From Acidobacteriaceae bacterium (GTDB taxonomy: Bacteria > Acidobacteriota > Terriglobia > Terriglobales > Acidobacteriaceae), in the NCBI GenBank assembly GCA_025356095.1, contig JANXUR010000027.1:1-44282 (forward strand): a DNA stretch of 44,282 nt, read 5' to 3'. The notes beneath the pieces were generated by a model that saw only the letters and a program-made list of their open reading frames with translations, made no database searches and was not told the DNA's origin. The stretch's first letter is position 1, and each line of letters starts with the position of its first letter. The translations under genes and the position numbers were made by a program. This document shows, piece after piece, positions 944 through 39,609 of the stretch.

Positions 944-1094
944 TCCCGACATTTCCTCGCCTATTTGACGCATTGCGTCCTGGCCGGAGTATGCCGTCTT
1001 GTCGTCCTATGCTCGAACGAGTTCGGGCGACTACATGCGATACGTCCTTTGCCGGTGCGCTTAATCAATGGCTTCACTGTCTCAGGAGTTCTCC

Positions 1095-2600: not shown

Positions 2601-2624
2601 GCGCAGCCACATAGGAGAACAACG

Positions 2625-13635: not shown

Positions 13636-13642
13636 CGGCTCC

Positions 13643-15229: not shown

Positions 15230-16626
15230 TACCGCACCTCCGGGATGATGTGTACATTCGATGTGGGGTCGGATGAGCTTGCGGCGCGCGGCAACGGGGT
15301 GCCTACTGCGCGTTCTAAATTGGCCAATTGCTGTTCCAGCTCAGCGGCGGCGCGAATGTAGTTGAGCTCGACTTCGAGCGAACTGTTCTGGCTGTCCAGC
15401 AGGTTCAGGAAGTCAGTGCGGTCTGCTTGATATGCGGCGACGGTAGCCTGCAGCACTGCGCGCGCTTGGGGTCGCAGCGTATTGCTGTAGAGGTCGGCCA
15501 GCTTCTGCGCGGTGCGAACGCGCACGAGAGCCTCTTGCATCTCCGCAAAGATGGCGGCAGAGCGGCTTTCGTATTCTGCCTTCTGCGCTAGTACTGCGGC
15601 ATTGGCTTCGGCAATTTCTGCTTCGTGGCGGCCCCGGTTCAAGCCCGGCAGGGTAATCGCCAGCTCCGCCATATAGGTATTGCGGTAGCGCTGTGTCTCG
15701 GGCATTAGCATGTAGCCCGCGTTCAGGGTGTAATCAGACTTTAAGGACTTTTGTGCCAGTTGAGTGCTGATTTCGTCCTGCCGAATCACGGCAGAAATCT
15801 CTGTGAGTTCGGGACGATGTTCCAGCGCTAGCTTCTCCAGATCGAGCAGGCTGGGGAGCTTCGCTGGCGGTGCGGAGGAGCCTTCGACTTCCAGCGGCGA
15901 ACCGGGGTCGCGGCCCACTAGGGTGTTCAAGCGAGTTCGTTCCAGGTCGCCATCCTGTTCTTGTATGGCCAAGTGCTCCACCAATCGCGTCAACGCGATT
16001 TGTGCTTTCAGCATGTCTTGTTGCGGCACTTTGCCAACCACGTACTTGATGCGTGCCGATTCCACGCCTTGGCGTGCAAGCGCAACCTGCTCATCGTGAA
16101 AGCGAATCTCCTCGTCGTTTCTAAGCAACGCATAAAAGGACTGTCTCACCTGCAGCAGCACGTCGCGCTTCTTCGTCTCAACCCGTGCTTGCGCAATTTC
16201 CACGTCGCTCGCGGCCAACTGGCTACGCAGTTGGCGTTTGCCACTACCCGGCAGATTCTGGCTGAGCATGAACATGTGCTGGGTTTGGTTGAGATCCCAT
16301 GGCTTGGCAAGGGGAGTGCCCCAGCCCCGGTACATGAACTGGGGATCGTCGAGCGCCCCGGCGCTGCCGGTGCGGGCCTGTGCCACAGCCGTCTGCCGTT
16401 GCAGGGCACGAATCTCAAGGTTGTGGTCGAGTGCCAGAGTCTCAAGCTGCGCCAGTGTCATGCGCGCCGACGGAGAAACGCGGTGGTCCGCTGGCGCCAG
16501 CATGGCTGCCGTGGCAGCGAGCGGATCCGGATTCGCGGCGGGGGGCTCCGACTGTTGTGCCCGAGTCGTGGTCGCGAGCAGTGCGAGCATCAATAGTGCA
16601 AACATCAATAGTGCAAACGTCTTCAT
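15229..16626 (-). CDS. TolC/CusC-family outer-membrane efflux channel
   Basis: This 465-residue protein starts MKTFALLMFALLMLALL with a cleavable signal ending near TTTRAQ. The start at 16626 has GGAGGAG just upstream and is preferred over the in-frame ATG at 16683. Two OEP repeats follow: MTLAQLETLALDHNLEIRAL near residue 55, and a second half with LDLEKLALEHRPELTEISAV. Both are typical of the coiled-coil and barrel of metal efflux channels. It is the first structural gene of the Cus-type operon. It differs from the outer-membrane factor at 2625, which carries a Met-rich extension that this one lacks. Confidence 0.9.
   Translation of the reverse strand: MKTFALLMFALLMLALLATTTRAQQSEPPAANPDPLAATAAMLAPADHRVSPSARMTLAQLETLALDHNLEIRALQRQTAVAQARTGSAGALDDPQFMYRGWGTPLAKPWDLNQTQHMFMLSQNLPGSGKRQLRSQLAASDVEIAQARVETKKRDVLLQVRQSFYALLRNDEEIRFHDEQVALARQGVESARIKYVVGKVPQQDMLKAQIALTRLVEHLAIQEQDGDLERTRLNTLVGRDPGSPLEVEGSSAPPAKLPSLLDLEKLALEHRPELTEISAVIRQDEISTQLAQKSLKSDYTLNAGYMLMPETQRYRNTYMAELAITLPGLNRGRHEAEIAEANAAVLAQKAEYESRSAAIFAEMQEALVRVRTAQKLADLYSNTLRPQARAVLQATVAAYQADRTDFLNLLDSQNSSLEVELNYIRAAAELEQQLANLERAVGTPLPRAASSSDPTSNVHIIPEVR
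16588..16617. repeat. Tandem 15-bp duplication within a signal-peptide region
   Basis: CATCAATAGTGCAAA occurs twice head-to-tail (16588-16602 and 16603-16617). It repeats five residues (LLMFA/LLMLA) in the hydrophobic core of the signal peptide of the outer-membrane channel and keeps the frame. Confidence 0.7.
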
Positions 16627-16741
16627 CGTTCTCCTCCATAGAGCGTGGCGCAATGGCGAAGACTGCAAGCAAGCGGACTCCATGCAAACGAGCGAAGCTG
16701 CGCGAAGTAACCCTAAGAGCAGGCAGTCGAGAAGAGCGAGA

Positions 16742-17276: not shown

Positions 17277-18587
17277 CTACTTAGCGCCCGCCTCGGCGGT
17301 TTGCAAATCTAAACTCACCCGTTCGCCGTTCATCAACACAGACCCGGCGTCGATCAATTGCTGCCCGGTGCAATCGAAGGCTTCATAGCATCGTAGTGCC
17401 GAGACGGGGAAGAAGAACTCTACCGCCTGATTGCCTTGCGCGGAAACCGCAGGCTCGGCCTGATGAATGGTGGTGCTGAAGGCGATGCCATCGAAGTTGA
17501 GGTCACCCTTAAAGTAGGTCATTACCGGACGGATCAGGTGAGAAATGTGTTCGTCGAAGGCGAGCGCTGCCAACTTGTAGTGGCTGCCCGTGGTTGCAGC
17601 AGGTAAGGTGGTGTTCACCGAGAACTCAATGTAAGCGCCTTTGCGGAAGGCAACGACAGCAGGCGGCGCGTAGGCCACGTAATGCGCTTGGGTTTCGGTC
17701 TCTTTCACCACTAATTCCATAATCTTTTGGTAGTCGGCCTGAATTCTAGCCAATGCCTCAGGCGAAGTGTCGCGCATGGGCATCGTGGCTTCGGGGGCGG
17801 CGATGGCGGGGGCCACGACTGAATCTGGTGTGGTAGCTACAGCGGCACCCCCATCTTTTTTCGATTTGCTTCTTTTGGCGGATTCTTTTGGGAATTGCGC
17901 AGGCGGAGGCGGGGGATGCAGGGCACCTTCCTGCGCTGCGCTGTCGCTCAAATACAGCGTATAGGGCTCGCCGTTGAGGAAGAAGTGGCTATCGAGAATT
18001 GCGGCCTGACGGTCGGTTTCACTCTTGGCGTTGGCCATACGAATGGCGGCGGCTTTAGGCAACACCAGTACAAGATTCTCAGGGCGCTCCATCTTTAGGC
18101 CCATAGCTTTGCCGCGCACGTGATGAGAAATCTCCATGGCGAAGCCTTGCACTTCGGGCAAGTCTTTCAGTTCGGGCATGGCGATTTCGATAATCGGCAG
18201 CATCACATCCTGAAAGGTACGCAGAACCCGTTGATCACGGCTCACCAGTTCAGAGGAGTAAGAAGCGAAGTAGTTGCCAGTGAGCTCCACCACCGTCATG
18301 CCGCCGTAGCGGTCGAAGCGGAGCGAGCGCTGGTCGGCTTTCTGCTGGTCGGCGAGTTCGAGATCGAGCACCCGGCTGAAGTAAAAACTGTAAGGGAAGA
18401 CATGGCCTTGCACTTCCGCTCCCACCGTCTTGAGCTGTGCGTAGTATTTCTCCTGTAACGCGCGCGAGGCTGGGTCTTTGACTTCGGCGGGAGTGAGGGC
18501 CTGACCGGAGGTGAACGCGGCAAGGCCCAATACAAGAACGAAAAGTGCAAAGCTACTTTTGTGCGTAAACAATACCGGGTGCTCCAT
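17277..18587 (-). CDS. Exported protein of unknown function at end of the respiratory operon
   Basis: This protein has about 436 residues. The ATG at 18587 overlaps the end of the cytochrome lipoprotein gene by 35 bp. It has no ribosome site, whereas a TTG at 18572 has GGAG about 9 nt upstream and may be the real start. An N-terminal signal (FALFVLVLGLAAFTSGQA) is followed by a domain with VFPYSFYFSRVLDLELADQQ and SLRFDRYGGMTVVELTGNY. A Pro/Lys linker comes next (HPPPPPAQFPKESAKRSKSK), then a second folded part (YAPPAVVAFRKGAYIEFSVN). No haem, metal or catalytic motif is visible and I recognise no family. Its overlap with the cytochrome genes suggests a periplasmic or outer-membrane accessory role in the same system. 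Confidence 0.75.
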   Translation of the reverse strand: MEHPVLFTHKSSFALFVLVLGLAAFTSGQALTPAEVKDPASRALQEKYYAQLKTVGAEVQGHVFPYSFYFSRVLDLELADQQKADQRSLRFDRYGGMTVVELTGNYFASYSSELVSRDQRVLRTFQDVMLPIIEIAMPELKDLPEVQGFAMEISHHVRGKAMGLKMERPENLVLVLPKAAAIRMANAKSETDRQAAILDSHFFLNGEPYTLYLSDSAAQEGALHPPPPPAQFPKESAKRSKSKKDGGAAVATTPDSVVAPAIAAPEATMPMRDTSPEALARIQADYQKIMELVVKETETQAHYVAYAPPAVVAFRKGAYIEFSVNTTLPAATTGSHYKLAALAFDEHISHLIRPVMTYFKGDLNFDGIAFSTTIHQAEPAVSAQGNQAVEFFFPVSALRCYEAFDCTGQQLIDAGSVLMNGERVSLDLQTAEAGAK

Positions 18588-19290
18588 AAGGGGGATCAGC
18601 CACAACGCGGATGTAGCCCACCAGCGCCTGCATCTCTGACTTGGACAGAGTATATCCGTAGGGAGGCATGAGCGGCGATTTGTTGAGCGCGGGGCCACCG
18701 TGCGCGATGATAGAGGCCAAGTCGGCATCACTCATCTTGTTTAAGGTGTCGCCCTCGGTGAAGAGATGCGGGTTAACCGCAAGGTTGTCGTAGTTGGAGA
18801 CGCGCTCGGGAGTGGAATCCTGATTGTGGCAGCGGGCGCAGTACTGGTCGTTTAAGCGGCTACCGAGCATCTCCTGATAGCCGAGGGCGATGGCTTCCGA
18901 CTTCAGTTCGACGCTCTTTCCAGCCTTGGTGGTAGTGCTGGCCACCAGTTGATAGCGGCCGGGAGCCACCCCAAGGGTAACGTTGCTGGTGAACTGGCCG
19001 CTGGAGTCGGTGAGGCCGGCGACAGGTTCGAACTGGACCCCTGTAGGCCCCTGCAGCATGACGGGCGCGCCGGCGACCGCAGCACCTTGTTCGTCATTTA
19101 CCTGCACCACAAGGGGGTCATGCAAGGTGGTGCCGACGGCGGCAGACTGCTTGCCGCCGCTCGATTCCACAATGGCTGCGCCGTAGGCGGTTGGCTTCAG
19201 TGCGGTAAAGCCGTTTTGATCGTGGCGGGCGCATCCTGCGGAAAATGCTAGCGCCAGAAACGTTAGTATGCAGGCAATCGGCTTCTTCAC
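18553..19290 (-). CDS. Lipoprotein with Ig-like domain and monohaem cytochrome c domain
   Basis: This 245-residue protein starts with GTG at 19290; GTGA overlaps the stop of the octahaem gene. A lipobox FSAGC places the lipid on Cys20. Residues 45-135 form an Ig/Big-1-like beta domain (LVVQVNDEQGAAVAGAPVML, GQFTSNVTLGVAPGRYQLVA). The C-terminal cytochrome c domain has CARCH at 151-155 and a likely axial Met208 in SPLMPPYG. It probably receives electrons from the octahaem cytochrome and holds them at the membrane surface. Which membrane it sits in is not determined by the sequence. Confidence 0.88.
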   Translation of the reverse strand: MKKPIACILTFLALAFSAGCARHDQNGFTALKPTAYGAAIVESSGGKQSAAVGTTLHDPLVVQVNDEQGAAVAGAPVMLQGPTGVQFEPVAGLTDSSGQFTSNVTLGVAPGRYQLVASTTTKAGKSVELKSEAIALGYQEMLGSRLNDQYCARCHNQDSTPERVSNYDNLAVNPHLFTEGDTLNKMSDADLASIIAHGGPALNKSPLMPPYGYTLSKSEMQALVGYIRVVADPPYGAPGIVYAQK

Positions 19291-21365
19291 TTTTTCGCCT
19301 CCATGGCGTCATGCCCCTTCAGGCTCATCAAGTAGGCGGTCAGCGCGCGGGCGTCGTCGTCACTCATATCGCGTTTGGGCTCTTGCGTCCCAGCGCGCAA
19401 TGCTTGCGGATCCTTCATCCAGTTGTAGACCCATGCCGCAGTGAGGCGGGAACCCACGTGGGTAAGGGAGGGGCCAACATAACCCTTGTCCTGCTTGGTA
19501 TCTATGATGTGGCAGCCTTGGCAGCCGTACTTGGAGTAATAAAGCTGTTTGCCGAGCTCGACCTGACCTGCCGGATAGCCGGTCAGCGGCATCGAGTCGC
19601 GATCCACCTTGGGCGATTGGTACACCGTCATGATGTAGTCGGTGAGGGTGTTGATTTCCGCATCAGTTAGATTGAATTTTGGCATGCGGCGGATGAGTGC
19701 GGGCCGCAGGGTGTTGGGGTTGCGCAAGAATTGTGCCAGCCAGTCGCGCTGCACCGAACTGCCCTCGGAGGTAAGTTCCGGCGCCATCTCGCCGCCACGC
19801 CCGTTGATCATGTGGCAGGAGAAGCAGTTGAGGTCGCGAATCAGTTTGCCAGCACTCCCGGCCGCTTCGTAGTGAGACTCCGGCAAAGCTGGCACCGTCT
19901 TGGCGGCTGGCATGGCCAGTGCACGTTCGTTGTGGGAGAGCAACGCATTCACCAGCGCGTCCACTTGCGTTGCGGTGAAGGTGTACTGCGGCATCTTCAA
20001 ACCCGCGCCAAAAGCGTGAGGCTGTTTGATCTTGGCGTCGAGATAGTCGTAAAGAGTGTGTTTGACGCCGGGAGCAAAGGCCAACTGCGCCACGGGCTTG
20101 CTGCCAACTTTGGTGAGTTCGGGAGCGAAGTTTTCTGGCCGCTTTACGCCGTTCACTTCATGGCAGGCGGCGCAGCCGGAATCGCTCACCAGCCGCTTGC
20201 CGTGTTCGATCTGTTCTGGCGTGGCGGCGTCCAGATGCACATTGGCCAGCAAATCAGCATCTGCTTTGTTCATCAAGAATCCGGTTAGCAGTCCAACCTC
20301 CTGCTCGGTGAAACGGTAGCGCGGCATGGCGGTGCCGGGGTCATACTGATGCGGGTTGCGTACCCAGGCTTGCAGCCACTCGGGCTTGACCTTGGAGCCG
20401 ACTTTTGTGAGCTCGGGGCCGATATCACCGCCGACCAGATTGCCCGCAGCATTTTGCACCGCATGGCAGGATGCGCAGAATGATTGGCCATACAAGCTCG
20501 CGGCTTTGGTTTGCAGGGTTGCGTCGCCTTTCAACTTTTTGGCCTGCTCCAGTACAGCTGGTACCACCTTGCTACCCGCATCGGGGCCCGGCGTGCTAGA
20601 GGCCATAAGGAAGGCAGAGATGTCGCGGGCGTCCTCATCCTTCAGTTTGAAGTTGGGCATGGTGGCGGTAGTGGAGTAAGCCTGCGGATCCTTGAGCCAG
20701 GCATAAATCCACTCGCGGCTGGTCTTGTCGGCAATATGCTCCAGCGATGGAGGGTCGTCGGTCGCGGCAACTACCGTGCCATCGGGGCGTTTGACGGTGT
20801 GGCAATGTATGCAGCCGTATTGCGTAAGCATCTTGCGGCCAAGATTCAGCTGCGGTGTGCCTTTCAAATCCTGCTGATGGCACTGGCCGCAAGAAGACTC
20901 CAGATACTTGGCGGGAAGCAAAGGCTCGTCCCATGCATCGGTAGCCCGATGGGCGTCTTCGACAGAAGTGGCTGCGCCTTGTCCGCGATGGCAAACCGTG
21001 CAGCCGAACTCTTCGGCTTTGTGCGGCATATCGGGATGATGGCGGTAAGGCTGCTTGCTTACATCCGCCAAGCTGGCCTCTTTCAAACCGGTATGGCATG
21101 TGGTGCAGCGATCTACGACGCCGATTTCGGGCAGCCAAATCTGCTGGATGCCGGGCTCGAAGTGGCGGCGCAGGGTCACCGCGTCACTGCGCTTGCTGAT
21201 GAGCTGCTGGTAGCCGCGTTGGTAGACGCGCCAGTCGGCGAAGTAGTGCTTGGCCGGGGCAACTGCCAGCAGAATCAAGAGCAGCAGGCTGGTCCAGGCA
21301 AAGGTGCGTACCGTGTCGCCAAACAGACGCTGGCGAAGTTTTTCGATTGAGTCGGGGAGCCGCAC
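19287..21365 (-). CDS. Octahaem membrane-anchored cytochrome c
   Basis: This 692-residue protein starts with GTG at 21365, which has GGAGGAG upstream and follows the subunit IV stop directly. A membrane helix spans residues 22-37. Eight CXXCH sites are present: 87 (CTTCH), 122 (CTVCH), 159 (CGQCH), 185 (CIHCH), 297 (CASCH), 398 (CAACH), 514 (CFSCH) and 615 (CQGCH). The N-terminal part packs three haems in a compact multihaem segment. The rest is a string of class I-type domains, each with a distal Met in a motif such as TMPNFK, AMPRYR, KMPQYT or RMPKFN. It probably takes the place of cytochrome c1/f as electron acceptor of the bc complex and carries electrons across the periplasm. Confidence 0.93.
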   Translation of the reverse strand: MRLPDSIEKLRQRLFGDTVRTFAWTSLLLLILLAVAPAKHYFADWRVYQRGYQQLISKRSDAVTLRRHFEPGIQQIWLPEIGVVDRCTTCHTGLKEASLADVSKQPYRHHPDMPHKAEEFGCTVCHRGQGAATSVEDAHRATDAWDEPLLPAKYLESSCGQCHQQDLKGTPQLNLGRKMLTQYGCIHCHTVKRPDGTVVAATDDPPSLEHIADKTSREWIYAWLKDPQAYSTTATMPNFKLKDEDARDISAFLMASSTPGPDAGSKVVPAVLEQAKKLKGDATLQTKAASLYGQSFCASCHAVQNAAGNLVGGDIGPELTKVGSKVKPEWLQAWVRNPHQYDPGTAMPRYRFTEQEVGLLTGFLMNKADADLLANVHLDAATPEQIEHGKRLVSDSGCAACHEVNGVKRPENFAPELTKVGSKPVAQLAFAPGVKHTLYDYLDAKIKQPHAFGAGLKMPQYTFTATQVDALVNALLSHNERALAMPAAKTVPALPESHYEAAGSAGKLIRDLNCFSCHMINGRGGEMAPELTSEGSSVQRDWLAQFLRNPNTLRPALIRRMPKFNLTDAEINTLTDYIMTVYQSPKVDRDSMPLTGYPAGQVELGKQLYYSKYGCQGCHIIDTKQDKGYVGPSLTHVGSRLTAAWVYNWMKDPQALRAGTQEPKRDMSDDDARALTAYLMSLKGHDAMEAKK

Positions 21366-22076
21366 TTAACTCCTCCAAGGCAGAACCCAGGACCAGCCCG
21401 GGCCGCGGAAAAAGGTGCCGACTGCGGTCAGCACAACGAGTTCAAAAAGAAACCAGCTCATCACCCAAAAAGAGAGCGGCTTGCCCGCCAGCGAGCGGCG
21501 GAAGTTGGAAGAGGTATTCGCCGGTGTGTAAGCGGCTACCGCCATTAACGCCACGGTCATGACGGTGGGCACCAGTGCCACGATCACGTCGAACAGCAGC
21601 AAGAACAGGCAGAGTACGCCAGAACTAACCCAAAAGATCTGCAAACGACGCTTGCGGTCTTTGAGGAACAGCCCCTCAGCTTCCACGTTGATGTTGAAGT
21701 AGGGAATCACAATGAGTGCTAGCACCACCAGCGTGGGAACCAGAACTCCCGCCACCACGGGTGGAAAGTAGTGCAGCAGTTCCTGCAAGCCGAGGAAGTA
21801 CCACGGTGCTTTTGCTGGATTCGGCGTGTGTGAGGGGTCCGCCAAGCCTTCAAGGGGTGCGTTGAAAAAGAGCGAAATCAGCACCAGAACAATGGCCAGC
21901 AATTGCACCGCGATAGCCGCCCGAAACAGCACTTCCGGAAATGCCTGAATGACTTCTTCATCCTGCGACTTGACTTGCGCCGAGGTGCGGCGAGTCACGA
22001 ATGCAACCCGTACCGGTGCCTTGCGCTGGTCAGACGCCACCACTGCGACGAAATCCTTGCCCGTTGCGTCGCTCAT
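21366..22076 (-). CDS. Cytochrome b C-terminal domain protein (subunit IV-like)
   Basis: This 236-residue membrane protein starts at 22076 and overlaps the cytochrome b gene by ATGA. The in-frame extension up to 22421 is non-coding in character. After a soluble N-terminal 45 residues, membrane helices begin at [20 protein letters not shown]. The quinol-site motif PEWY is replaced: the matching place reads [13 protein letters not shown] (about 88-100), so the Glu is missing. More helices follow ([36 protein letters not shown]) and a C-terminal helix. With the Rieske protein and cytochrome b6-like protein it should form the quinol-oxidising core. Confidence 0.88.
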
Positions 22077-22852
22077 AACTGAGGCCTCCCGGAATCGCAG
22101 TTCGAAACGCTGGCCGCATCTTTTTGATGGGCGTAAAGGCCGCCATCCTTGCGAATGCGCCAGAAGTGAATGGCGACGAAGAAGAGCGCGGCGATGGGTA
22201 GCACCATGCAGTGCAGCACATAGAAGCGCAGCAACGCGTTGGCGTTGACGAAGTGCCCACCCAACATAAGAAAGCGAACCCGGTCGCCAACTACCGGAAC
22301 CGCCGAAGCGATATTCGAGCCGACCGTGATCGCCCAGTACGCTAGTTGATCCCATGGCAGCAGGTAGCCGGTGTAGCTGAGCAGCAGCGTGAGCAGCAGC
22401 AGCACTACACCAATTACCCAATTGAATTCACGGGGGGCGCGATAGGCTCCGCGATAAAACACGCGGAACATGTGGGCAAACACCAGAAACACCATGGCAT
22501 GAGCCGACCAACGATGCAGATTGCGCAGGAATTGCCCTGACGAAACGACGAACTGCAAATCCTTGGTGTCGGCGTAAGCCTGCGGTGCCGAAGGATGGTA
22601 GTAGAGCATCAAAAGAATGCCGGTAATGACCAGAATGCCAAAGGTGCCCAGCGTCAACGTCCCCAGATACCAGGTGGTATTCAAGCTGATCATTCGCTTG
22701 CGCACTTTGGTGGAGAGCAGATGGAGAAAGATATTCTGCTGAATCGCCATGGAGCGGTGGAGCGTGCTGGAGCCGCTGCCGCCGCGGAAGACCGAGCGCC
22801 AAGCTCGCGTCTCCGTCAGTGCGTCGAAATATTTGCTAACCCTTACACTCAT
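22073..22852 (-). CDS. Cytochrome b6-like haem b subunit
   Basis: This 259-residue protein with four membrane helices binds the two b haems of a quinol:cytochrome c oxidoreductase. The ligands are visible: His113 and His127 in [19 protein letters not shown], and His214 and His229 in [20 protein letters not shown]. The second pair is 15 positions apart, as in cytochrome b6 rather than mitochondrial cytochrome b. The [17 protein letters not shown] segment is the conserved Qo-site region. It lies 3 bp after the Rieske gene and overlaps the subunit IV gene. Confidence 0.92.
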
Positions 22853-22855
22853 TTG

Positions 22856-23350
22856 CTAGACCCTCACGAACTGCAACGGCCGAATCTCGTTGGAGCGATC
22901 CACCATCAGTTCCCCATCCTCGCTTAGCCACATGCGCAGCCACGGCAAAGGCTTGGGCGCGGGGCCTTCCTTCTTCACGCCCTCCCGGGTGAACTTGCTG
23001 CCGTGGCAAGGGCACGCGATAGTGTCAATCTCCGGCTTCCATGCGGTAAGGCAACCCAGGTGAGTGCAGACCGCGTTAAGCGCAAAAAAGCCTTCGGCTC
23101 CGCGCACCACAAAAATGCGGGTATCCACATCGAGCGTCACGGAATCCTGTCCGTAGCTTTCCGGCCTGCCCATGTTCACCACGGGTGAAGGCTCGAACAG
23201 CACATTGGGCGACAGGAACTGGTACGCAAACGCTGTGGTGCCGACGGCGGCCACGCCAAGCGACCCCAATCCCAGACGCACAAACATCTCGCGCCGGTCG
23301 AGCGTGGGCCCTGCCTCGGCCTGAATTCGGTCATTCTTCTCTTCTGCCAT
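22856..23350 (-). CDS. Rieske 2Fe-2S protein
   Basis: This 164-residue protein is counted from MAEEKNDRIQ (ATG at 23350, with GAGGG just upstream); an ATG at 23377 is also in frame. Its N-terminus has a Tat-like segment (LDRREMFVRLGLGSLG) and a single anchor helix. The cluster ligands are in CTHLGC (95-100) and CPCHGS (113-118), with the disulfide-forming Cys in each motif. It carries electrons from quinol to the cytochrome c partner of the bc module. Confidence 0.94.
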   Translation of the reverse strand: MAEEKNDRIQAEAGPTLDRREMFVRLGLGSLGVAAVGTTAFAYQFLSPNVLFEPSPVVNMGRPESYGQDSVTLDVDTRIFVVRGAEGFFALNAVCTHLGCLTAWKPEIDTIACPCHGSKFTREGVKKEGPAPKPLPWLRMWLSEDGELMVDRSNEIRPLQFVRV

Positions 23351-23446
23351 ATTTCCCTCAGCTTTAGGTGTAATCATTTTTGCGAATCTTTACTCGTGTG
23401 AAGCAGACGCATTCCACTTCGCAGTCGTCGTTGGTGCCGATCGCGG

Positions 23447-25429
23447 TCATTTCGCTGCCCCGGCCAGTGCGGGCTTGGCGCGTAACCGCATATCAATGGC
23501 TTCCACAGAAATCAGCCCTGTCGGCTCCGCTGGCAACAGGTTGTACGACTCCATGCTGATGGTCTGCACCGGGCACCGAGCCGCGCACAAGCCGCACCGG
23601 ATGCAGCGGGTCTCATCTTTCAACATGACCGATCCGATGCCCAGATTCAGTTCGTCAGGGCTCATATCTGGCAGTTCGGCTTCATACATTGCGGCGTTGG
23701 CGGAAAGATGTTCCAGCGTTTCCGCGCTGAAGCCCACGCGGTCCAGCGTCACCAATTCCAGGCAATTTTCCGGACAAACATCCACGCAACCGCCGCACAG
23801 AATGCAGAGCGACCCATCGTCGGCATAGCCTTCAAATACGGTGTTGACCCAGCAGTGCAGGCAGCGCTGTGCTTCGGCTACCGCCGATTCTTCGTCATAG
23901 CCTTCTTCCACTTCCGTCATGCCGGTGCGGCGATCCAGCGGCAGCATCGGAATCGGCTGGCGGATCAAGTCCATGTAATCGGCGGGCATGGTGTGGCGCG
24001 GCAATTCGGTGACTTCGATGATGGGTTCAGGGTGCTTGGTTCCGCGCAAGAATTCGTCAATACCCATGGCGGCGCGCTTGCCGTCACCGACGCTGTCAAT
24101 GATCATGCGTGGGCCGAAGACGCAATCGCCGCCGGCGAAAACGCCGGGTGCCGAGGTCATCAGGGTATGGGGATTTACGTTGATCAGGCCGCGCTGCGAA
24201 ACCTCAATGCCGTCTTCGGCACGCAGGAAGTCGAGATTCGTGGTCTGGCCAATCGCCATAATGACGGTGTCGCAAGCGATTTGGGTCTCGCTGTTTTCGT
24301 AGAACTGGGGATTGAATCGTTTGTTCTCGTCGAAGACAGACTTGGTTTTGAGGCACTCCAGCGCCGCTACGGTGCCGTCGCGACCAACAAAGCGCTTAGG
24401 TCCCATGCCCGGATGCAGGATGATACCTTCGGTCTCGGCTTCTTCAATCTCTTCCAAGGCGGCGGGCATCTCGTCGCGCTTCTCCAGGCAAACCACGTGG
24501 ACTTCGCGTGCGCCCATGCGCAGCGCTGAGAGGGAGATGTCCACCATTTCTTTGGTGGCAACCGCAGCCACGTTGTCGTCCGAGGGCGAGAGTTCCTCCA
24601 CGCCGGGCGTGTGCTGGCGCAGTACTTCGCGCGCGGCAGAGCGCGCTACGTCCATGGCAACGTTGCCGCCGCCAATCACCAACACGTTGTGGCCAATGGT
24701 GAATTTGTAACCCAGGTTTACATTGAGCAAGAAATCCACGCCGCGATGTACGCCATCGAGTTCCACGCCGGGGATGGTGAGGTCGCGACCGCGATGTGCG
24801 CCGACGGCGAGCAGCACCGCGTCAAAACCCTGCTGGCGAAGTTCATGCACTTGGAAGTCGCGGCCTGCGGCATGGTTTAGCTTGAGGGTGATGTCGCCAG
24901 TGTCAAGGATCTCGCGCACCTGGGCTTCGATCACGTCGCGCGGCAGGCGATATTCAGGAATGCCGAGGTACAACATGCCACCGGCGACCGGGGCGGCTTC
25001 AAAAATCGTGACCGAGTAGCCCATCAGCGCGAGGTCATGCGCGGCGGCGAGGCCGACGGGCCCACCACCCACCACAGCGATCTTGAACGGCAGTTTCTCA
25101 ACCACGCGGCCTGCATTTACGTTGATCGGATGTTTCGATTCGGGGCCGTGGCGCTCGGTGAGGAAGCGTTTGAGGGCGCGAATGGAGATGGGTTTATCAA
25201 TTTCGCCCCGGCGGCAGGCGGTTTCACAGGGATGTGCGCAAACCCGGCCGCAGATGCTGGCTAGGGGGTTGGGCTCGCGAGCATATTTATAGGCTTCCTC
25301 GAACTCGCCTTCGGCGATCAGGCCGACGTAGCGTCCCGCATTGGTGTGCGCGGGGCAGGCCATCATGCAGGGGAAGTTGGTGTGCAGCCAGTCCTCATCC
25401 ACCCGCTTGTTCAGGAAGCGCTTCAGCAT
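23447..25429 (-). CDS. FAD/NAD(P)-dependent Fe-S oxidoreductase (GltD-like) with C-terminal ferredoxin domain
   Basis: This 660-residue protein is probably cytoplasmic. Residues 1-110 hold the GltD-type Fe-S domain (Cys21, 25, 60, 64, 68 and 72: CMMACPAHTN, CGRVCAHPCETAC). An FAD site follows at 117-145 (IAVVGGGPVGLAAAHDL) and an NAD(P) site at 249-265 (VLVIGGGNVAMDVARS). A FAGGDCVFGP motif near 430-440 closes the flavin domain. The C-terminus adds two 4Fe-4S ferredoxin motifs (Cys542/545/548/552 and Cys609/612/615/619). This architecture moves electrons between NAD(P)H, flavin and ferredoxin-type clusters. Its place upstream of the Rieske gene suggests that it feeds or drains the quinone/bc module; direction and partner are inference. 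Confidence 0.9.
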   Translation of the reverse strand: MLKRFLNKRVDEDWLHTNFPCMMACPAHTNAGRYVGLIAEGEFEEAYKYAREPNPLASICGRVCAHPCETACRRGEIDKPISIRALKRFLTERHGPESKHPINVNAGRVVEKLPFKIAVVGGGPVGLAAAHDLALMGYSVTIFEAAPVAGGMLYLGIPEYRLPRDVIEAQVREILDTGDITLKLNHAAGRDFQVHELRQQGFDAVLLAVGAHRGRDLTIPGVELDGVHRGVDFLLNVNLGYKFTIGHNVLVIGGGNVAMDVARSAAREVLRQHTPGVEELSPSDDNVAAVATKEMVDISLSALRMGAREVHVVCLEKRDEMPAALEEIEEAETEGIILHPGMGPKRFVGRDGTVAALECLKTKSVFDENKRFNPQFYENSETQIACDTVIMAIGQTTNLDFLRAEDGIEVSQRGLINVNPHTLMTSAPGVFAGGDCVFGPRMIIDSVGDGKRAAMGIDEFLRGTKHPEPIIEVTELPRHTMPADYMDLIRQPIPMLPLDRRTGMTEVEEGYDEESAVAEAQRCLHCWVNTVFEGYADDGSLCILCGGCVDVCPENCLELVTLDRVGFSAETLEHLSANAAMYEAELPDMSPDELNLGIGSVMLKDETRCIRCGLCAARCPVQTISMESYNLLPAEPTGLISVEAIDMRLRAKPALAGAAK

Positions 25430-25524
25430 AGTTCGGTCACTTTCAATTCCAGCGTGCGGTGCAAACTGTGGGCGAGAAAATACGGGAGAGCCGGAGGAGC
25501 CGATCTCTCCCGTCGCAGTGTTGC

Positions 25525-26112
25525 CTACTTGCTCAGCGTAAAGTCGGCTTTGGCATCGCCCGTAGCCGCGACCGGTTTGGTCTGGGTTTTGGCGCCTTCG
25601 TGCCAGGCGACCACGCTGTATTGGCCGTCAGGCACGTTGGCAATCTTAAAGTTGCCAGCCTTGTCGGTGATTGCATAGTAAGGTGTGGGACTGACGAGCA
25701 CGTAGCCCGCCATCTCCGGGTGCACGTTGCAGAGTAGTGCTGCTGCGCCTGCCGTATCAAACTTGAACGGACGCTTGTCACCCTTGGGCCATGTGCCCAG
25801 ATTCTTGCCCGCCAGCTTTTTGCCATTCTGCTGAATCGAAGGCCAAAAGACGTTGTGGGCTACGGTGTCGCTGTTGAGGAAGTCCACAGTAGTGCCTAGC
25901 AGCACGGCAGTAATGTGGGGTTGGAAGAGCAGCCCGCGCTGATCTATCACCACGTGCTCGGCGGGTGCGGGAAAGGTCTTGCCAGCGATCGCGTCCACAT
26001 AAACAACCGACTCACCTGCGACGCCTGAGACTTTGCCGCTAATAGTTCCGGCATGGGCCACGGTGCCTAGTGCCAACGCGGCCACCACAATTAGAACAAT
26101 GCTCCGATTCAT
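25525..26112 (-). CDS. Exported cupredoxin-like protein with carboxypeptidase-regulatory-like tail
   Basis: This 195-residue protein has a signal peptide ending at AHA (about 21) and GAGGAG upstream of the ATG. The cupredoxin fold carries a complete type-1 copper ligand set: His86 (VAHNVFW), then Cys128, His131 and Met134 (LLCNVHPEM). Residues 150-195 (AITDKAGNFKIANVPDGQYS) look like a carboxypeptidase-regulatory Ig-type element. It probably carries single electrons in the periplasm. It lies between the outer-membrane barrel protein and the FAD/Fe-S enzyme. Confidence 0.88.
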   Translation of the reverse strand: MNRSIVLIVVAALALGTVAHAGTISGKVSGVAGESVVYVDAIAGKTFPAPAEHVVIDQRGLLFQPHITAVLLGTTVDFLNSDTVAHNVFWPSIQQNGKKLAGKNLGTWPKGDKRPFKFDTAGAAALLCNVHPEMAGYVLVSPTPYYAITDKAGNFKIANVPDGQYSVVAWHEGAKTQTKPVAATGDAKADFTLSK

Positions 26113-26205
26113 AAACTCTCCTCGAAAGAAACTCGATTGCCTACTTCACATAAACTTCCGGCATTGCCTACTTTGCCTAAATCGTTCAATACAGTCAAGC
26201 TGTTC

Positions 26206-27717
26206 TTAGTACACCCACTCCAGCCCGGCAACCGCCTGATTGGTGCGGAACGGGTCTGAGGCGGGATTGCCTTCGGAATCAAACACTCTCTGTTTAGGCC
26301 GAATCTGATATTCAAACGACGCTTTGATGTTGGCGTGGATGAGGAACTGAATGCCCGGTGTGATGCGGTTACGGGTAGCACCAGCAGGTGAGTAAAAATT
26401 AGTGGAGCCGCCTGCCGCGCCGTTGATAAAGTCCGCCGTGGATTGCACTCGGTCGTAGCGCATAATCGCCATGACCCACGGCAGCGCCAGATAGTCTGCC
26501 TCCAGAAACCCGCCGTTGAAGTGTGCAGGTACACCCGTGAAGAAGGCGGTGCCACCTTCGTTCGGCAACAGGTTCTTGTCGCGCCCATACATGTACAGGC
26601 CGAATAGATTAAAGGTGCGGTAGTTGAAGCTGAAGTCGCCGCCTGCTCGATAGAAGGGCTCCCGTGCGACGAGAGTGGTGGTGGCACCCAGAATCCGTTG
26701 CACCGAGCGGCCGTAGAAGTAAAAGGTGCCGAATTGCAGATACGTGTGGTCGCGCGGACCGATGGCACCCGCAGCTTGAATCTCATTTCGGCTGGCTGAG
26801 TCTTTTTCCAGATTAAAGCGGTACTGGAAGCGGCCGTAAATATCCTTGAAGTTGGCATCGGAGAACAGCCCCACCGCGGGACTGATGTTATCCCCGCCAG
26901 CTGTAGTTCCGCTGGTATTTTGGTTGATTACCGCCACCGAGTAGTGATACCCGCCGTAAGTGTGTCCGCCGCTTAGTTCCACGCCTTGGCCGGGGGCAGA
27001 GAAGGCAAAACTGTTGCTGACGTTCTGGGGCGTGGCACCGTTGAGCGCCCCGAAGTTGGCTTGGTCATAAATATCCCAGCCGCTGATGTTCCACGAACGG
27101 GCTGCGCTGAATGGCAGGTCCAGTTCAAATTGACCCACGCGAAGGTTCAACGAGTCGGTGGGCAGCTTGAGCAACCGCCCAATGTTGTGGAACTTCAGGT
27201 ACCCGTCACCCAACCCGCCCGCAGCATTCGAGCCGCCAACGTTAAAATCACTATCCACCCAGAAGGAGATGCCCCCGCCAAAGTTGCCTGCGGTAAAGAT
27301 GCTGAACAGCCCAGGCTGGAAGTCGGTCCGAGGAATCGTCGGATCAGTGGAATCCGCAGGCCGGAAGTTGTTGCGGTTGCGTCCGTAGACCTGAAAGAAG
27401 CTGTTAAAGCGCAGACCGATCGCCGGCAGCCCCGGAATGGTGCCCGGATAAATCACATGGGGCCACAACTCTTTTTGCGCCGGAGCGCCCAGCATCACCG
27501 GCGGAACCTTGAGAAAAGTTTCATCGTCCTTGGGGAACTTGAAGCCTGCGTCCTTAAATGCCTTACCAAAATCGTTCAGTTTAGGAAAATCAACGTGGCA
27601 TGTGCTACAAGAAGTGCCGTATTGCCGAGAAAATGCCGGAATAGCATGGCTGGGCTGAGCCAACGCCAACATCATTATCAATACACCGAAACCAGTTGCC
27701 CAATGCGTGAGCCGCAT
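26206..27717 (-). CDS. Outer-membrane beta-barrel protein with N-terminal haem c motif
   Basis: This protein has about 503 residues, counted from MRLTHWATGFGVLIMMLALA (ATG at 27717 with AAGGAG 6 nt upstream). The signal peptide ends near PSHA. The mature N-terminus carries one haem motif, CSTCH at 37-41 (QYGTSCSTCHVDFPKLNDFG). The rest is a run of alternating amphipathic strands rich in aromatic and Gly residues (FGGGISFWVDSDFNVGG, HTYLQFGTFYFYGRS). It ends in VAGLEWVY, a terminal aromatic as in outer-membrane barrels. It heads the respiratory cluster and could place a haem at the barrel mouth. The barrel call is by pattern, not by a named family. Confidence 0.8.
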   Translation of the reverse strand: MRLTHWATGFGVLIMMLALAQPSHAIPAFSRQYGTSCSTCHVDFPKLNDFGKAFKDAGFKFPKDDETFLKVPPVMLGAPAQKELWPHVIYPGTIPGLPAIGLRFNSFFQVYGRNRNNFRPADSTDPTIPRTDFQPGLFSIFTAGNFGGGISFWVDSDFNVGGSNAAGGLGDGYLKFHNIGRLLKLPTDSLNLRVGQFELDLPFSAARSWNISGWDIYDQANFGALNGATPQNVSNSFAFSAPGQGVELSGGHTYGGYHYSVAVINQNTSGTTAGGDNISPAVGLFSDANFKDIYGRFQYRFNLEKDSASRNEIQAAGAIGPRDHTYLQFGTFYFYGRSVQRILGATTTLVAREPFYRAGGDFSFNYRTFNLFGLYMYGRDKNLLPNEGGTAFFTGVPAHFNGGFLEADYLALPWVMAIMRYDRVQSTADFINGAAGGSTNFYSPAGATRNRITPGIQFLIHANIKASFEYQIRPKQRVFDSEGNPASDPFRTNQAVAGLEWVY

Positions 27718-27948
27718 AGTGCTCTCCTTAATCGAAGGGTGAGAAATGCCTTTCTGCCTCAACTCGATTCTGCTAATTCTCGTTGACGATGCCACATCCA
27801 TCTGTGCACCTCAGCACAACTACGTGTGATGGTTGTCACAAATAGGGAAAGCCGACCGCTTCTGCGGTATGGTGGCACGCCCCCCCCCAAGAGGCCCGAA
27901 ATGCCGGGTTCAAGAACGTGCCGTACGAATTTCTGCAAGAATAGCCGC

Positions 27949-29439
27949 ATGCTTTTCTGGAATGAACCTCGCCGCTGGTTGCAGTTCGCCCCCCCAGGTC
28001 GGCTGCGGATTGCGCTCGTCTGGGCGGTTTGGGCGTTGTGCGCCTACTGCCCTTTGGCGGTTGCGCAGGTCCCAGCCACGCCAGCCGCCGGGGCTGCTGG
28101 AGCCGCCAGCATCAAGGGCACGCTGCGCGATGCCAAGGGCGATCCAGTGGGTGAAGCGTTGGTTTCACTCACTGAAATGGAAAGCGGGCAGCCGCATCTT
28201 CTGCAAGCAAAAACTGGAGCGGATGGAAGCTTTGTGCTGGAGCCAAGCCACGCCGGAACCTATAGCTTGAAGGCACAAAAAGGCGCGGCAGAGGCGTTGG
28301 TTCAGAAGCTGGTGTTGGCTCCAGCCGAGCAAAAGCGGGTGGATTTGGTGCTGAGGGGCAAATCTGCCCCGTTGCTGCCGGCATCAGAGGCAGGAGCGAT
28401 GGAGTTTGACGACAAGCCCAGCTTCACCGTGGCGGGTGTGATTGACTCCACTGCCGCCGGTGGTCACGGCTCGGGCGAAGGACTGCGAACCAGCGAAGCC
28501 CTGGCAGAAGATACTGCGAAGCTGAAATCTGGAGAGCCACCCCCCAGCGGCGATCTCACGCAGACTCGAGAACGGTTGAGTGGGCAGATTGAATCGTCAG
28601 GTGGCGGGCCGACGAGCGCGAAACTGCACCGCCAATTGGGCGATGTTTACGAGCGGCTAGGGGACTCTCTGGCTGCGGTCCGGGAATTTGAGATGGCCGC
28701 CCGGCTGGCGCCAGTTGAGGAAAATTACTTTGAGTGGGGTGCAGAGCTGCTGCTGCATAGAGCGATTGTGCCTGCGATCGAGGTCTTCCGCAAGGGAGTC
28801 ACGGCTTCGCCTAGCTCGGCTCGGATGCAGGCCGGACTGGGCGCGGCGCTCTACGCCAGCGGCGCCGCCGAAGATGCAGCGCAGCAGATATGCGCCGCCT
28901 CCGACTTAGCCCCCACGGATGCTGCACCTTACTACTTTCTCGGCAAGATGCAGCTAGCATCACCTACCGCGCTTGCTTGTATAGAGCCTAAGCTAGCTCG
29001 GCTAGTGCACCTTCACCCCGGCGACGCCTTGGGTAATTACTATTATGCGATCGCGATTTGGCGAGGCGAGAAGGGCGATGGAGAGTTGCCCCAATGGCAA
29101 ACCGCTCTAGCCCTGACGGAAAAAGCCGCTGCATTGAACCCGAAGCTGGGCGAAGCATACTTACTGACGGGGATATTGCAATCTGCGCGGCATCATGACA
29201 AAGCGGCACTAGCGGCTTTCCAGCAGGCAATCGAAACAACCCCCAACCTAGCCGAAGCGCACTACAGGCTGGCGAATCTATACAAGCAGATGGGGGAACC
29301 TGCCAAGGCCCAGCTTTCGCTACAACAGTATAAGAGCATTCAGAAGACCGAGGCGGCAGAGGCGGAACGGAAGCGCGTGGACTTACAGCAGTTTGTTGTG
29401 ATCCTGAAGGATCAGCCCGCGACCGGCGACAGCCGATGA
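27949..29439 (+). CDS. Exported TPR protein with N-terminal carboxypeptidase-regulatory domain
   Basis: This protein has about 496 residues from ATG 27949 (MLFWNEPRRW). A hydrophobic export signal (IALVWAVWALCAYCPLAVAQ) follows a basic stretch. The frame is open back to 27826, but that part includes a run of nine C and is unlikely to be translated. Residues 45-130 form an Ig-like carboxypeptidase-regulatory domain (IKGTLRDAKGDPVGEALVSL). From about residue 210 to the end come TPR units (LHRQLGDVYERLGDSLAAVR, AEAHYRLANLYKQMGEPAKA). It is probably a periplasmic protein-protein interaction scaffold. It converges on the CRTAC1-like operon, with 27 bp between the stop codons. Confidence 0.8.
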   Translation: MLFWNEPRRWLQFAPPGRLRIALVWAVWALCAYCPLAVAQVPATPAAGAAGAASIKGTLRDAKGDPVGEALVSLTEMESGQPHLLQAKTGADGSFVLEPSHAGTYSLKAQKGAAEALVQKLVLAPAEQKRVDLVLRGKSAPLLPASEAGAMEFDDKPSFTVAGVIDSTAAGGHGSGEGLRTSEALAEDTAKLKSGEPPPSGDLTQTRERLSGQIESSGGGPTSAKLHRQLGDVYERLGDSLAAVREFEMAARLAPVEENYFEWGAELLLHRAIVPAIEVFRKGVTASPSSARMQAGLGAALYASGAAEDAAQQICAASDLAPTDAAPYYFLGKMQLASPTALACIEPKLARLVHLHPGDALGNYYYAIAIWRGEKGDGELPQWQTALALTEKAAALNPKLGEAYLLTGILQSARHHDKAALAAFQQAIETTPNLAEAHYRLANLYKQMGEPAKAQLSLQQYKSIQKTEAAEAERKRVDLQQFVVILKDQPATGDSR

Positions 29440-29466
29440 ATGCGCTTGGCATTTTTTTCGGGTCTC

Positions 29467-31251
29467 TTACGTAGCCTTGGGCCACCAAGCAGAGACAATA
29501 CCACTACCTTCTCGAATAGTAAGAATTTGATTTGCCTTCACTTGCGCGAAGCGCTCTATCTTCTGCGTAGTCGGCCACCTAACCTCGATTAAGTCCGCCG
29601 TTTGAGCCTTGCCAAGCCCAAAGTGCAGCCGCAGATCGCTTTGCGACATCACACTGGAACCACTATGTACTTCATCCATTTGAATGTGTTTGCCTGTGAT
29701 CACGCGGACGCGCGCGCCAATCGCAGTGCGATTGCAAACCGTGCCCACCAGCTTCATCTTGATCCAATTCTGCTTATTACCGCCATCATTCCGGAGCAGG
29801 GAGGGGGTGTCGCCTAAATTGAGGATCACCGCGTCTATGTCGCCGTCATTGTCATAGTCACCGAAGGCCGCGCCACGGCTTGAAAATTGATCACTGATGC
29901 CGGGCCCGAGTTCCGCCGAAACATCCTTGAACTGGCCGTTACCTAAGTTCTTATAAACCAATCGCGGGTTACGATAACTCTGCCCGATATTGTGGCCATC
30001 AATTTGCGGGTAGACGTGGCCGTTCACTTGCATGATGTCCGGCCAGCCATCGTTGTCATAGTCTACAAATCCGCAACCCCAAGCAACATACTTGTTATTA
30101 ACCCCAACCCCCGAGGTGAATGTTACATCGGTGAACGTACCATCTCCATTGTTGTGATACAGGTTGCAGGTATCGTCAGCAAAGTTAGTTTTAAAAATAT
30201 CAAACCAGCCATCGCAGTCGTAGTCCGCGACCGCTACACCCATCCCCGCTTGTTCGTGGCCGTTGTCGCTGTAGGCGCAGCCAGCGAGCACCGCGACATC
30301 GGTGAACGTTCCATCGTGATTATTGCGGAATAGAATACTGGGTTGTGAGTCAACAGCCACATAGATATCTGGCCAGCCGTCATTGTCGAAGTCATATGAG
30401 ACAGCAGTGATTGAATAGCGCGGTCCGGGCTTTAAGATGCCAGACTTCTCCGATACGTCAGTGAAGGTACCATCACCGTTATTGTGGTACAGCAGGCTTG
30501 TATCTCCTGTCAGGCCACGGGGTCCACACATTACTGGGATCGCCTTCCACTGGCACAGCGCAGGCCCCGCCGGGTCGGGATTCTTGGCTGGGTCGAGCTT
30601 GATATAGTTGCAGACAAAAAGATCCAAGTGACCGTCGCGGTCGTAGTCAAGCCAAGTGCAGCCAGCGCCCCAACGCACTTGCTCACTATAGAGACCGTTC
30701 TTGCGAGTTACATCGGAGAAGGTGCCGTCCCCATTGTTATGAAATAGAATGTTATGTCCCCAAAAGCAGCAAAAGAGATCATCCCAGCCGTCATTGTCGT
30801 AATCGCCAACGCACACCCCAGTCTGCCAACCCGCACGCGCAAGGCCCGCCTTATCGCTAACATCCGTGAAGGTGCCGTCGCGATTATTTTTATATAGATG
30901 CGAGGTAGGTGCTTGTCCGGGCGCCCACTGCGCGCCGAGTTGCGTCCCGTTCGTTAGGTAGATATCAAGCCAGCCATCATTGTCGTAGTCAAAGAAAGCA
31001 AGGCCGCTCCCCTTGGCTTCAATAATATAGCGCTTCTCCTTCGGGTTACCCCAAACGTTAGGTATCGTAAGCCCTGCGTCGTGGGCCACATCCACGAACA
31101 TGACGTCTGACGCAGACTTGGGGGGAGTGACGGCCGACAAGAGCGGAGCCTTGGAATCAAGCCGATGCATGGGCGTAGTGAGCGCATCCAAGAGCGTGCT
31201 GCCTAGGACGACGAGCGAAGAACCAAGCATGTAACGCCGCGATAATCTCAT
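29467..31251 (-). CDS. FG-GAP/VCBS repeat protein with ASPIC/UnbV C-terminal domain (CRTAC1-like)
   Basis: This 594-residue exported protein starts MRLSRRYMLGSSLVV, a Tat-like signal. It has seven calcium-loop motifs of the form DxDxDG (FDYDNDGWLDIY, GDYDNDGWDDLF, LDYDRDGHLDLF and so on) spaced through residues 90-480, forming an integrin-type beta-propeller. The last 100 residues are the ASPIC/UnbV domain (VRVITGKHIQMDEVHSGSSV, then RLHFGLGKAQTADLIEVRWP). The function of this family is unknown; surface carbohydrate or protein binding is usually assumed. It is the last gene of the minus-strand operon, 44 bp after its paralogue. Confidence 0.88.
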   Translation of the reverse strand: MRLSRRYMLGSSLVVLGSTLLDALTTPMHRLDSKAPLLSAVTPPKSASDVMFVDVAHDAGLTIPNVWGNPKEKRYIIEAKGSGLAFFDYDNDGWLDIYLTNGTQLGAQWAPGQAPTSHLYKNNRDGTFTDVSDKAGLARAGWQTGVCVGDYDNDGWDDLFCCFWGHNILFHNNGDGTFSDVTRKNGLYSEQVRWGAGCTWLDYDRDGHLDLFVCNYIKLDPAKNPDPAGPALCQWKAIPVMCGPRGLTGDTSLLYHNNGDGTFTDVSEKSGILKPGPRYSITAVSYDFDNDGWPDIYVAVDSQPSILFRNNHDGTFTDVAVLAGCAYSDNGHEQAGMGVAVADYDCDGWFDIFKTNFADDTCNLYHNNGDGTFTDVTFTSGVGVNNKYVAWGCGFVDYDNDGWPDIMQVNGHVYPQIDGHNIGQSYRNPRLVYKNLGNGQFKDVSAELGPGISDQFSSRGAAFGDYDNDGDIDAVILNLGDTPSLLRNDGGNKQNWIKMKLVGTVCNRTAIGARVRVITGKHIQMDEVHSGSSVMSQSDLRLHFGLGKAQTADLIEVRWPTTQKIERFAQVKANQILTIREGSGIVSAWWPKAT

Positions 31252-31295
31252 AAGAAATAAATGTCCGAAAAAGCGGTGGAACCGCTAAGAGATAA

Positions 31296-33104: not shown

Positions 33105-33110
33105 AGCCCG

Positions 33111-35705: not shown

Positions 35706-35706
35706 A

Positions 35707-39567: not shown

Positions 39568-39609
39568 GGTCATACAGATTTGTGCAAGGCTCACTCCCGG
39601 CTCACTCCA

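Follow-up and report, generated by a model that had tools for sequence, protein, structure and literature searches.

The window analysed here is a stretch of 44,282 nucleotides from an Acidobacteriaceae bacterium (phylum Acidobacteriota; contig JANXUR010000027.1). It contains a cluster of nine genes in which a Rieske/cytochrome b complex is accompanied by a flavoprotein, a cupredoxin, c-type cytochromes and a barrel protein with a haem motif. A first description made from the letters of the window, referred to below as the sequence-only reading, had reported nine genes on the same strand, and a check of the open reading frames (ORFs) confirmed all nine on the minus strand, between positions 17277 and 27717 and near the coordinates first given. 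From high to low coordinates, the features are:

26206..27717, minus strand: BAR, probable Cyc2-like fused monohaem cytochrome-porin, 503 residues (motif, AlphaFold2 model, VIA-align)
25525..26112, minus strand: CUP, putative periplasmic cupredoxin, 195 residues, also bearing a carboxypeptidase-regulatory-like domain (PF00127, PF13620)
23447..25429, minus strand: FLV, GltD-like oxidoreductase of the flavin adenine dinucleotide (FAD)/nicotinamide adenine dinucleotide (phosphate) (NAD(P)) type with N- and C-terminal iron–sulphur (Fe-S) cysteines, 660 residues (Pyr_redox_2, Fer4_20, Fer4)
22856..23377 (start at 23377 or 23350), minus strand: RSK, Rieske 2Fe-2S protein (PF00355, PDB matches 9rk4 and 9rk3, CPCHGS-x-F)
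22073..22852, minus strand: CYTB, b6-type cytochrome b (PF00033; His44, Arg234-Lys235, Tyr62)
21366..22076, minus strand: SUB4, subunit IV-like membrane protein, 236 residues (PF00032)
19287..21365, minus strand: OCT, octahaem cytochrome c with an N-terminal hydrophobic segment (18-36), 692 residues (eight CXXCH, PF00034)
18553..19290, minus strand: LIPC, monohaem cytochrome c with a lipobox-like N-terminus as read by eye, 245 residues (PF13442)
17277..18572, minus strand: UNK, secreted-looking protein of unknown fold, 431 residues (no Pfam or NCBIfam match)

The barrel, cupredoxin, flavoprotein and Rieske genes are separated by gaps of 93, 95 and 96 bp, the last of which assumes the Rieske start at 23350 and would shrink to 69 bp with the upstream ATG at 23377. 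The following genes nearly touch, with 3 bp between the Rieske and cytochrome b genes, none between the subunit IV and octahaem genes, and overlaps, as reported in the sequence-only reading, of 4 bp (cytochrome b and subunit IV), 4 bp (octahaem and lipoprotein cytochromes) and 20 bp (lipoprotein cytochrome and last gene). The ATG of the barrel gene at 27717 is preceded by AAGGAG. Promoter-like and terminator-like sites at the cluster exceeded those in shuffled sequences by at most 1 standard deviation. That the genes are grouped beyond chance follows from the recurrence of the same order across many families, described below.

Pfam supports the families assigned earlier to the bc subunits and the flavoprotein, with matches of cytochrome b to PF00033, subunit IV to PF00032, the Rieske protein to PF00355, and the flavoprotein to Pyr_redox_2, Fer4_20 and Fer4. 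The best two PDB matches of the Rieske protein are 9rk4 (1e-24) and 9rk3 (6e-20). These entries are Kuste4569 and Kustd1480, respectively, Rieske proteins of Kuenenia stuttgartiensis with measured potentials of +303 and +335 mV, the latter for Kustd1480 (PMC12954380; this and the other papers are cited from their accessible sections). The corresponding complexes, Kuste4569-4574 and Kustd1480-1485, are built from a b6-like cytochrome b with subunit IV, together with a cytochrome carrying six or eight haems and a putative NAD(P) oxidoreductase (PMC12954380). The statement in the sequence-only reading that no described system was known with exactly this gene set needs correcting for the core, which has a precedent in the Rieske/cytochrome b-NAD(P) oxidoreductase type of anammox bacteria.

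With the Kuste4569 segment as query, 38 loci of Planctomycetota were fetched, mostly named as anammox genera. Homologues of the Rieske protein, the flavoprotein, cytochrome b and subunit IV are clustered in all eight anammox loci listed. Among the five Kustd1480-type loci fetched, four contain the flavoprotein and four a homologue of the octahaem protein; the closest of these homologues (35% over 660 residues) lies in locus L157 of Scalindua rubra, which also encodes a cupredoxin and a monohaem cytochrome. The octahaem protein of the window has eight CXXCH motifs, matches PF00034 in five stretches, carries a hydrophobic segment at residues 18-36 and occupies the place of cytochrome f, as the hexa- or octahaem protein does in the anammox type. 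Subunit IV shows four hydrophobic segments above a crude threshold, compared with five membrane helices in the anammox-type subunit. Judged from this homology and gene content, the core very probably belongs to the Rieske/cytochrome b-NAD(P) oxidoreductase complexes known from anammox bacteria.

Several residues discussed for the Kuenenia complexes can be followed in alignments. A new haem b was modelled where the two cytochrome b subunits of the dimer meet, bound to His43 or His62, and Arg511 of the flavoprotein was placed near this haem in one model (PMC12954380). The proteins of K. hertensis carry His43, Arg247, His62 and Arg266-Lys267 at the published numbers, and these align in the window cytochrome b with His44 and, as the pair on the propionate side of the haem, Arg234-Lys235. 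A row was counted as flavoprotein-linked if a flavoprotein match of more than 200 bits lay on the same strand within 9 kb; locus L195 (1000 bases) contains no gene and contributes no row. The histidine proposed to bind the interface haem is present in all 51 flavoprotein-linked cytochrome b rows of the window's phylum and in 36 of 37 anammox rows, the remaining row having a gap. Cys35, the haem-cN cysteine of b6, corresponds to Tyr62 in the window; this cysteine is absent from the same 51 rows and present in all 36 readable anammox rows. In the Rieske protein, whose motif in the window is CPCHGS-x-F, a serine stands beside the cluster in all 51 rows that have a flavoprotein match, with phenylalanine as in Kustd1480 in 46 and tyrosine in five. 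The flavoprotein has 15 cysteine columns that are cysteine in every ungapped row of 60 and a 16th that is cysteine in 54 of them. Arg550 of the other Kuenenia complex fell on a residue other than arginine in K. hertensis.

A tree of Rieske plus cytochrome b rows (80 rows) sets 73 rows, namely the window and its relatives together with the anammox and other flavoprotein-linked rows, apart from seven rows without flavoprotein by a branch supported at 100/100; long branches meet at this point according to a warning of the tool, and the exact position of the split is unsure. A flavoprotein gene lies nearby in 62 of the 73 rows on the large side. The barrel-linked rows do not form one clade, with L072, L080, L085 and L086 placed lower and L076 near the anammox rows, which suggests that the link to the barrel was gained or lost more than once or spread by transfer. 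A plain b6f or bc1 complex was considered for the core; the presence of a flavoprotein and an octahaem subunit, together with the tree, led to its rejection.

Related clusters of other composition occur in the same phylum. Other flavoprotein-linked Rieske/cytochrome b clusters (L163-L176, L186-L193, L202) often have a longer, apparently fused cytochrome b and a c-type protein with five, seven or more CXXCH motifs. Another group (L179-L185, L197) has the interface histidine and no flavoprotein match in the fetched stretch, several members encoding a large protein with eight CXXCH motifs.

The second main component of the cluster is the barrel protein. Cyc2 proteins are described by the motif AXPXFAR[Q/K][T/Y] before a single N-terminal CXXCH, a PXL after it, at least 365 residues and a 16-strand porin (PMC8406198). 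The N-terminus of the window barrel reads AIPAFSRQY-GTS-CSTCH-VDFPKL and is thus one residue off the strict motif, with serine in place of alanine; PXL stands at the stated distance, the CXXCH is single and N-terminal, and the protein has 503 residues. Among 42 barrel relatives, from which L070 was excluded because the contig ends within its barrel and no haem motif is visible, 25 have the strict motif, including L064 and L066, whose barrels hold the same place in the operon, and 40 have PXL at this distance. An AlphaFold2 model built on 27 sequences predicts 16 strands of at least seven residues at modest overall confidence (predicted local distance difference test score, pLDDT, 63; predicted template modelling score 0.67), with a poorly predicted haem region. 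A Foldseek search with this model ranked OmpF-type porins first and OprP at rank 15. In VIA-align, OprO (4rjw; Z 22.1, root-mean-square deviation (rmsd) 3.8, 319 aligned) and OprP (2o4v; Z 22.1, rmsd 4.3, 321 aligned) were at the top, most other listed porins being within about 1 Z of them; the same two entries are named in the Cyc2 paper (PMC8406198). The barrel has no Pfam or NCBIfam match at E ≤ 0.1, and its single match among PDB sequences is meaningless. The near-consensus haem motif and a predicted fold closest to OprO/OprP give the label Cyc2-like (rather than Cyc2), and this label is assigned with good confidence. Of the earlier claim of a haem-bearing barrel, the CXXCH and the predicted barrel fold stand, and the description is narrowed to a Cyc2-like fused cytochrome-porin. 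Acidobacteria have also been listed among the homologues near Leptospirillum Cyc572 (PMC10654088).

A search of 297 genomes from the window's phylum gave a barrel match (E ≤ 0.001) in 79; the NCBIfam model ExtP, used as cytochrome b probe, matched in 195 of the 297, with none above the cut-off among the matches listed. Forty stretches were fetched, of which 30 have barrel and cytochrome b close together or, in G203, on two contig ends, and ten are barrel-only; shares among these loci describe a selected, non-random sample. The exact order barrel-cupredoxin-flavoprotein-Rieske-cytochrome b-subunit IV-octahaem-lipoprotein is found in 20 of the 40, under 11 family labels (f1, f7, f23, f25, f26, f28, f34, f41, f56, f65, f78), so that conservation of gene order beyond close relatives, which had been proposed as a check, is observed. 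Variants include L072 and L080, with otherwise the same order, a longer cytochrome b and no separate subunit IV match; L085 and L086, with a hexahaem protein and no cupredoxin match; L076, whose cluster is without flavoprotein; and L089-L091 (f1), in which the barrel stands at the opposite end of the cluster. The barrels of L089-L091 belong to one of two haem-motif types that fill the same role, namely RQT in L084 and L087-L091 and R-Q/K-Y in most loci. The last gene occurs in eight of the 40 loci, in f1 and f28 only. It is a family-specific extra outside the widely conserved set, and the nine-gene set of the sequence-only reading is reduced by this gene.

In a less selected sample, the best 30 barrel places (L002-L031), cytochrome b is found at 20, and one is cut by a contig end. 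Together with the exact order in half of the fetched loci and the two barrel types in the same role, this argues that the barrel and the Rieske/cytochrome b complex probably lie on one electron chain. A set that may form such a chain, reaching the outer membrane, had been suggested at the outset, and its conservation is in line with this. The barrel-cupredoxin module and the complex could instead share the locus without sharing electrons, as the cupredoxin adjoins the barrel in eight of the ten fetched barrel loci without the complex and the wide gaps of 93 to 96 bp all fall among the barrel, cupredoxin, flavoprotein and Rieske genes. The exact order under 11 family labels speaks against mere neighbourhood, as does a Planctomycetota contig (G473) that carries barrel-cupredoxin-Rieske-cytochrome b-subunit IV-octahaem in the same order up to the contig end, with no flavoprotein match in the fetched 15 kb, and this explanation is considered very improbable. 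Among 149 genomes drawn from Planctomycetota, the phylum of S. rubra, 11 have a barrel match. The window barrel matched one of six anammox genomes searched, that of S. rubra, in which barrel, cupredoxin and flavoprotein genes stand together on one contig. A plasmid collection gave no match to the barrel (E 1e-3) or the octahaem protein (E 1e-10).

The cupredoxin matches PF00127 with 22.1 bits (cut-off 21.2) as well as PF13620, and His together with Cys-x-x-His-x-x-Met, read by eye, are its likely type-1 copper ligands. The lipoprotein cytochrome has a class I cytochrome c domain (PF13442) and one CXXCH in the window copy and its relatives. The product of the last gene has no Pfam or NCBIfam match at E ≤ 0.1, and its structure model (pLDDT 75.5) has no fold match in the PDB at E ≤ 0.001.

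Members of the window's phylum use menaquinone. We infer the localisation, cofactors, contacts and direction of the following path from the observed gene content, order, homology and conserved residues. The operon may encode a single trans-envelope path by which electrons pass between NAD(P)(H), menaquinol and the outer membrane. Menaquinol would be oxidised at the positive-side site, with the first electron passing from the Rieske protein to the octahaem cytochrome and on to the lipoprotein cytochrome or cupredoxin. The second electron would move through haem bP and bN to the interface haem b on two His44 residues, and from there via the Fe-S clusters and FAD to NAD(P)+, so that bifurcation would yield NAD(P)H. 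NAD(P)H production by bifurcation has been argued for Kuenenia as a proposal, and the lack of haem cN would remove a centre in which Hauser et al. saw an uphill step (PMC12954380). The high-potential electron could leave via the cupredoxin to a terminal oxidase or, alternatively, through the porin haem plug to an acceptor in solution, for example ferric iron. Lifting a quinol electron to NAD(P)+ requires a high-potential sink, and the octahaem cytochrome, the cupredoxin and oxidases could supply it. This bifurcating version of the single path, with NAD(P)H production as the net direction, is put forward tentatively, at somewhat less than an even chance. Its combination with a Cyc2-like porin that would pass electrons outwards to ferric iron in solution is a good deal more doubtful and must be called unlikely. 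The direction implied at first, from NAD(P)H outwards, is one of several.

In one of the others, the flavoprotein would take electrons from NAD(P)H and reduce menaquinone on the negative side, followed by a normal Q cycle towards the octahaem cytochrome, the cupredoxin and an oxidase or the outer membrane, in the service of respiration or the disposal of excess reductant. Such a flow is energetically downhill. The absence of haem cN would fit a bc1-like negative site, given that bc1 complexes function without this haem, and the cluster holds the only PF00033 match of the genome. The genome has three COX1 matches, and a single NrfD match lies about 5 kb from the best of them on the same contig, which suggests an alternative complex III and hence a second route of quinol oxidation, a point against this direction. 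Hauser et al. also thought flow from NAD(P)H to quinone unlikely in Kuenenia, as wasteful of energy (PMC12954380). On balance, NAD(P)H oxidation is regarded as rather unlikely.

Electrons could also enter from outside, with dissolved Fe(II) or another donor oxidised at the porin, passage via the cupredoxin and octahaem cytochrome to oxygen, and a reversed complex reducing menaquinone, from which NAD(P)H would then be formed. The members of the Cyc2 family with a tested function are Fe(II) oxidases (PMC8406198), the barrel nearly matches their motif and fold, and the COX1 matches would provide for oxygen reduction. The motif is nevertheless one residue off, with a poorly modelled haem site, and no RuBisCO was found in 41 genomes of the window's family, other fixation routes being outside the search. 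Electrons running in reverse from the Rieske protein to a negative-side flavoprotein would furthermore have to move against the membrane potential, an argument by which NAD(P)+ is unlikely to be reduced from the level of the Rieske protein by the complex alone; NAD(P)H oxidation would be a simpler direction, as would bifurcation from menaquinol where a strong sink is available. The inward chain is also held to be rather unlikely. Calvin-cycle lithotrophy was rejected, as RuBisCO is missing from the 41 genomes.

Several observations weigh against the bifurcating trans-envelope path itself. The interface histidine occurs in 15 of 19 rows without a nearby flavoprotein gene; in three of these (L187, L194, L198) only the position agrees, the surrounding context being different and Arg-Lys missing, which leaves 12 such rows, and for this reason the histidine is no proof of NAD(P) coupling. 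Some rows scored as lacking the flavoprotein lie near contig ends (e.g., L177), where its lack is unproven. Of 17 rows from the phylum that have no flavoprotein, four carry the haem-cN cysteine, and since the anammox complexes keep this cysteine, the window type is not identical to them. At the position of flavoprotein Arg511 (Kuste4570) the window has glycine, as do 47 of 60 rows (arginine in 11, a gap in two), which counts against full equivalence with the anammox complexes. Nine of the best 30 barrel places show no complex in the fetched stretch. An electron moving to the negative side opposes the membrane potential, and the energetics of bifurcation are by this argument tight. Finally, Fe(II) oxidation by Cyc2, the one function tested in the barrel family, carries electrons inwards (PMC8406198).

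A Rieske/cytochrome b complex that pushes electrons up to NAD(P)+ is still a proposal, made for anammox bacteria. The presence of the same kind of complex, without the troublesome haem, across many families of the window's phylum could make further organisms available for testing this idea. If true, the unlikely combination of a haem-cN-free bifurcating complex with a porin that reduces ferric iron would, to our knowledge, provide the first example of such bifurcation by a complex from outside the anammox bacteria, as well as the first Cyc2-like reductase. In addition, the operon pairs a Cyc2-like porin with a specific partner in the inner membrane and thereby offers a hypothesis for Cyc2 relatives of uncertain function, such as Cluster 3, whose function the Cyc2 authors call uncertain (PMC8406198).

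Further genes surround the cluster in the window and in related loci. TPR and FG-GAP/UnbV-ASPIC proteins adjoin the barrel at 27826-39594, two assigned by Pfam and others by eye. The other flank includes genes for copper or metal handling, namely an RND pump (Pfam) with adjoining adaptor- and TolC-like ORFs as read by eye (10483-16683, minus strand) and a multicopper oxidase, an outer-membrane efflux protein and a cytochrome c (1068-4900, plus strand). A phage-type tyrosine integrase lies about 7 kb from the cluster (8987-10306, minus strand), and no tRNA genes were found in the window. A gene for a PAS-LuxR (GerE) regulator borders the cluster on the same strand in four of seven sampled loci, after the lipoprotein gene in L071 (14502-15215) and upstream of the barrel in L077 (14552-15319), L081 (14232-15266) and L083 (14652-16271). 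Also upstream of the barrel are a second cupredoxin gene in L065 (12503-13318) and L067 (15199-15837), an NrfD gene of alternative complex III or a relative slightly upstream in L064 (2830-4299; one family member), and genes for an NHL-repeat protein and a Paired_CXXCH cytochrome with 11 CXXCH in L066 (1068-4088, same strand). NHL-repeat and multihaem cytochrome genes occur in this way in clusters for outer-surface electron transfer.

Among the PMC papers searched, none describes the gene set in the window's phylum in its title or opening abstract lines; subscription papers, including the original anammox proposal, were outside this coverage, and an earlier description there is possible. The accessible sections of PMC5317091, PMC3578206 and PMC10451490 do not describe it, and a term search in PMC12442390 gave no hits.

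Four known systems are comparable in part. The Geobacter selenite/tellurite cluster extHIJKLMNOPQS likewise groups a porin, multihaem cytochromes, a Rieske protein, a b-type cytochrome and a membrane protein, whereas its gene list, in the accessible text, includes neither flavoprotein nor cupredoxin and ExtI is not described there as haem-bearing (PMC5877670). The window cytochrome b, subunit IV and octahaem protein resemble Geobacter ExtP, ExtQ and ExtS; their bit scores stay below the NCBIfam cut-offs (262.3 of 290, 53.4 of 150 and 97.9 of 100, respectively), and with all three cut-offs unreached, the Ext system was ruled out. The bc-like operon of Nitrospina gracilis shares the Rieske protein, the split b6-type cytochrome b and the octahaem cytochrome, and its type is also found in Kuenenia and Methylomirabilis; flavoprotein, cupredoxin and barrel are unmentioned for it in the accessible sections (PMC3578206). 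Cyc2 shares with the window barrel the signal-like N-terminus, the single N-terminal CXXCH, the PXL and a porin barrel nearest OprO/OprP, and differs in the alanine that is serine in AIPAFSRQY (PMC8406198). The Kuenenia complexes share homologous Rieske, b6-type cytochrome b, subunit IV and FAD/Fe-S NAD(P) oxidoreductase proteins, the octahaem protein of the Kustd1480 type, and the interface histidine and Arg-Lys in cytochrome b. In contrast to them, the window type is without the haem-cN cysteine, has another gene order and adds the cupredoxin, the monohaem lipoprotein and the Cyc2-like barrel. Locus L157 of S. rubra is intermediate between the two, with its cupredoxin and monohaem cytochrome genes.

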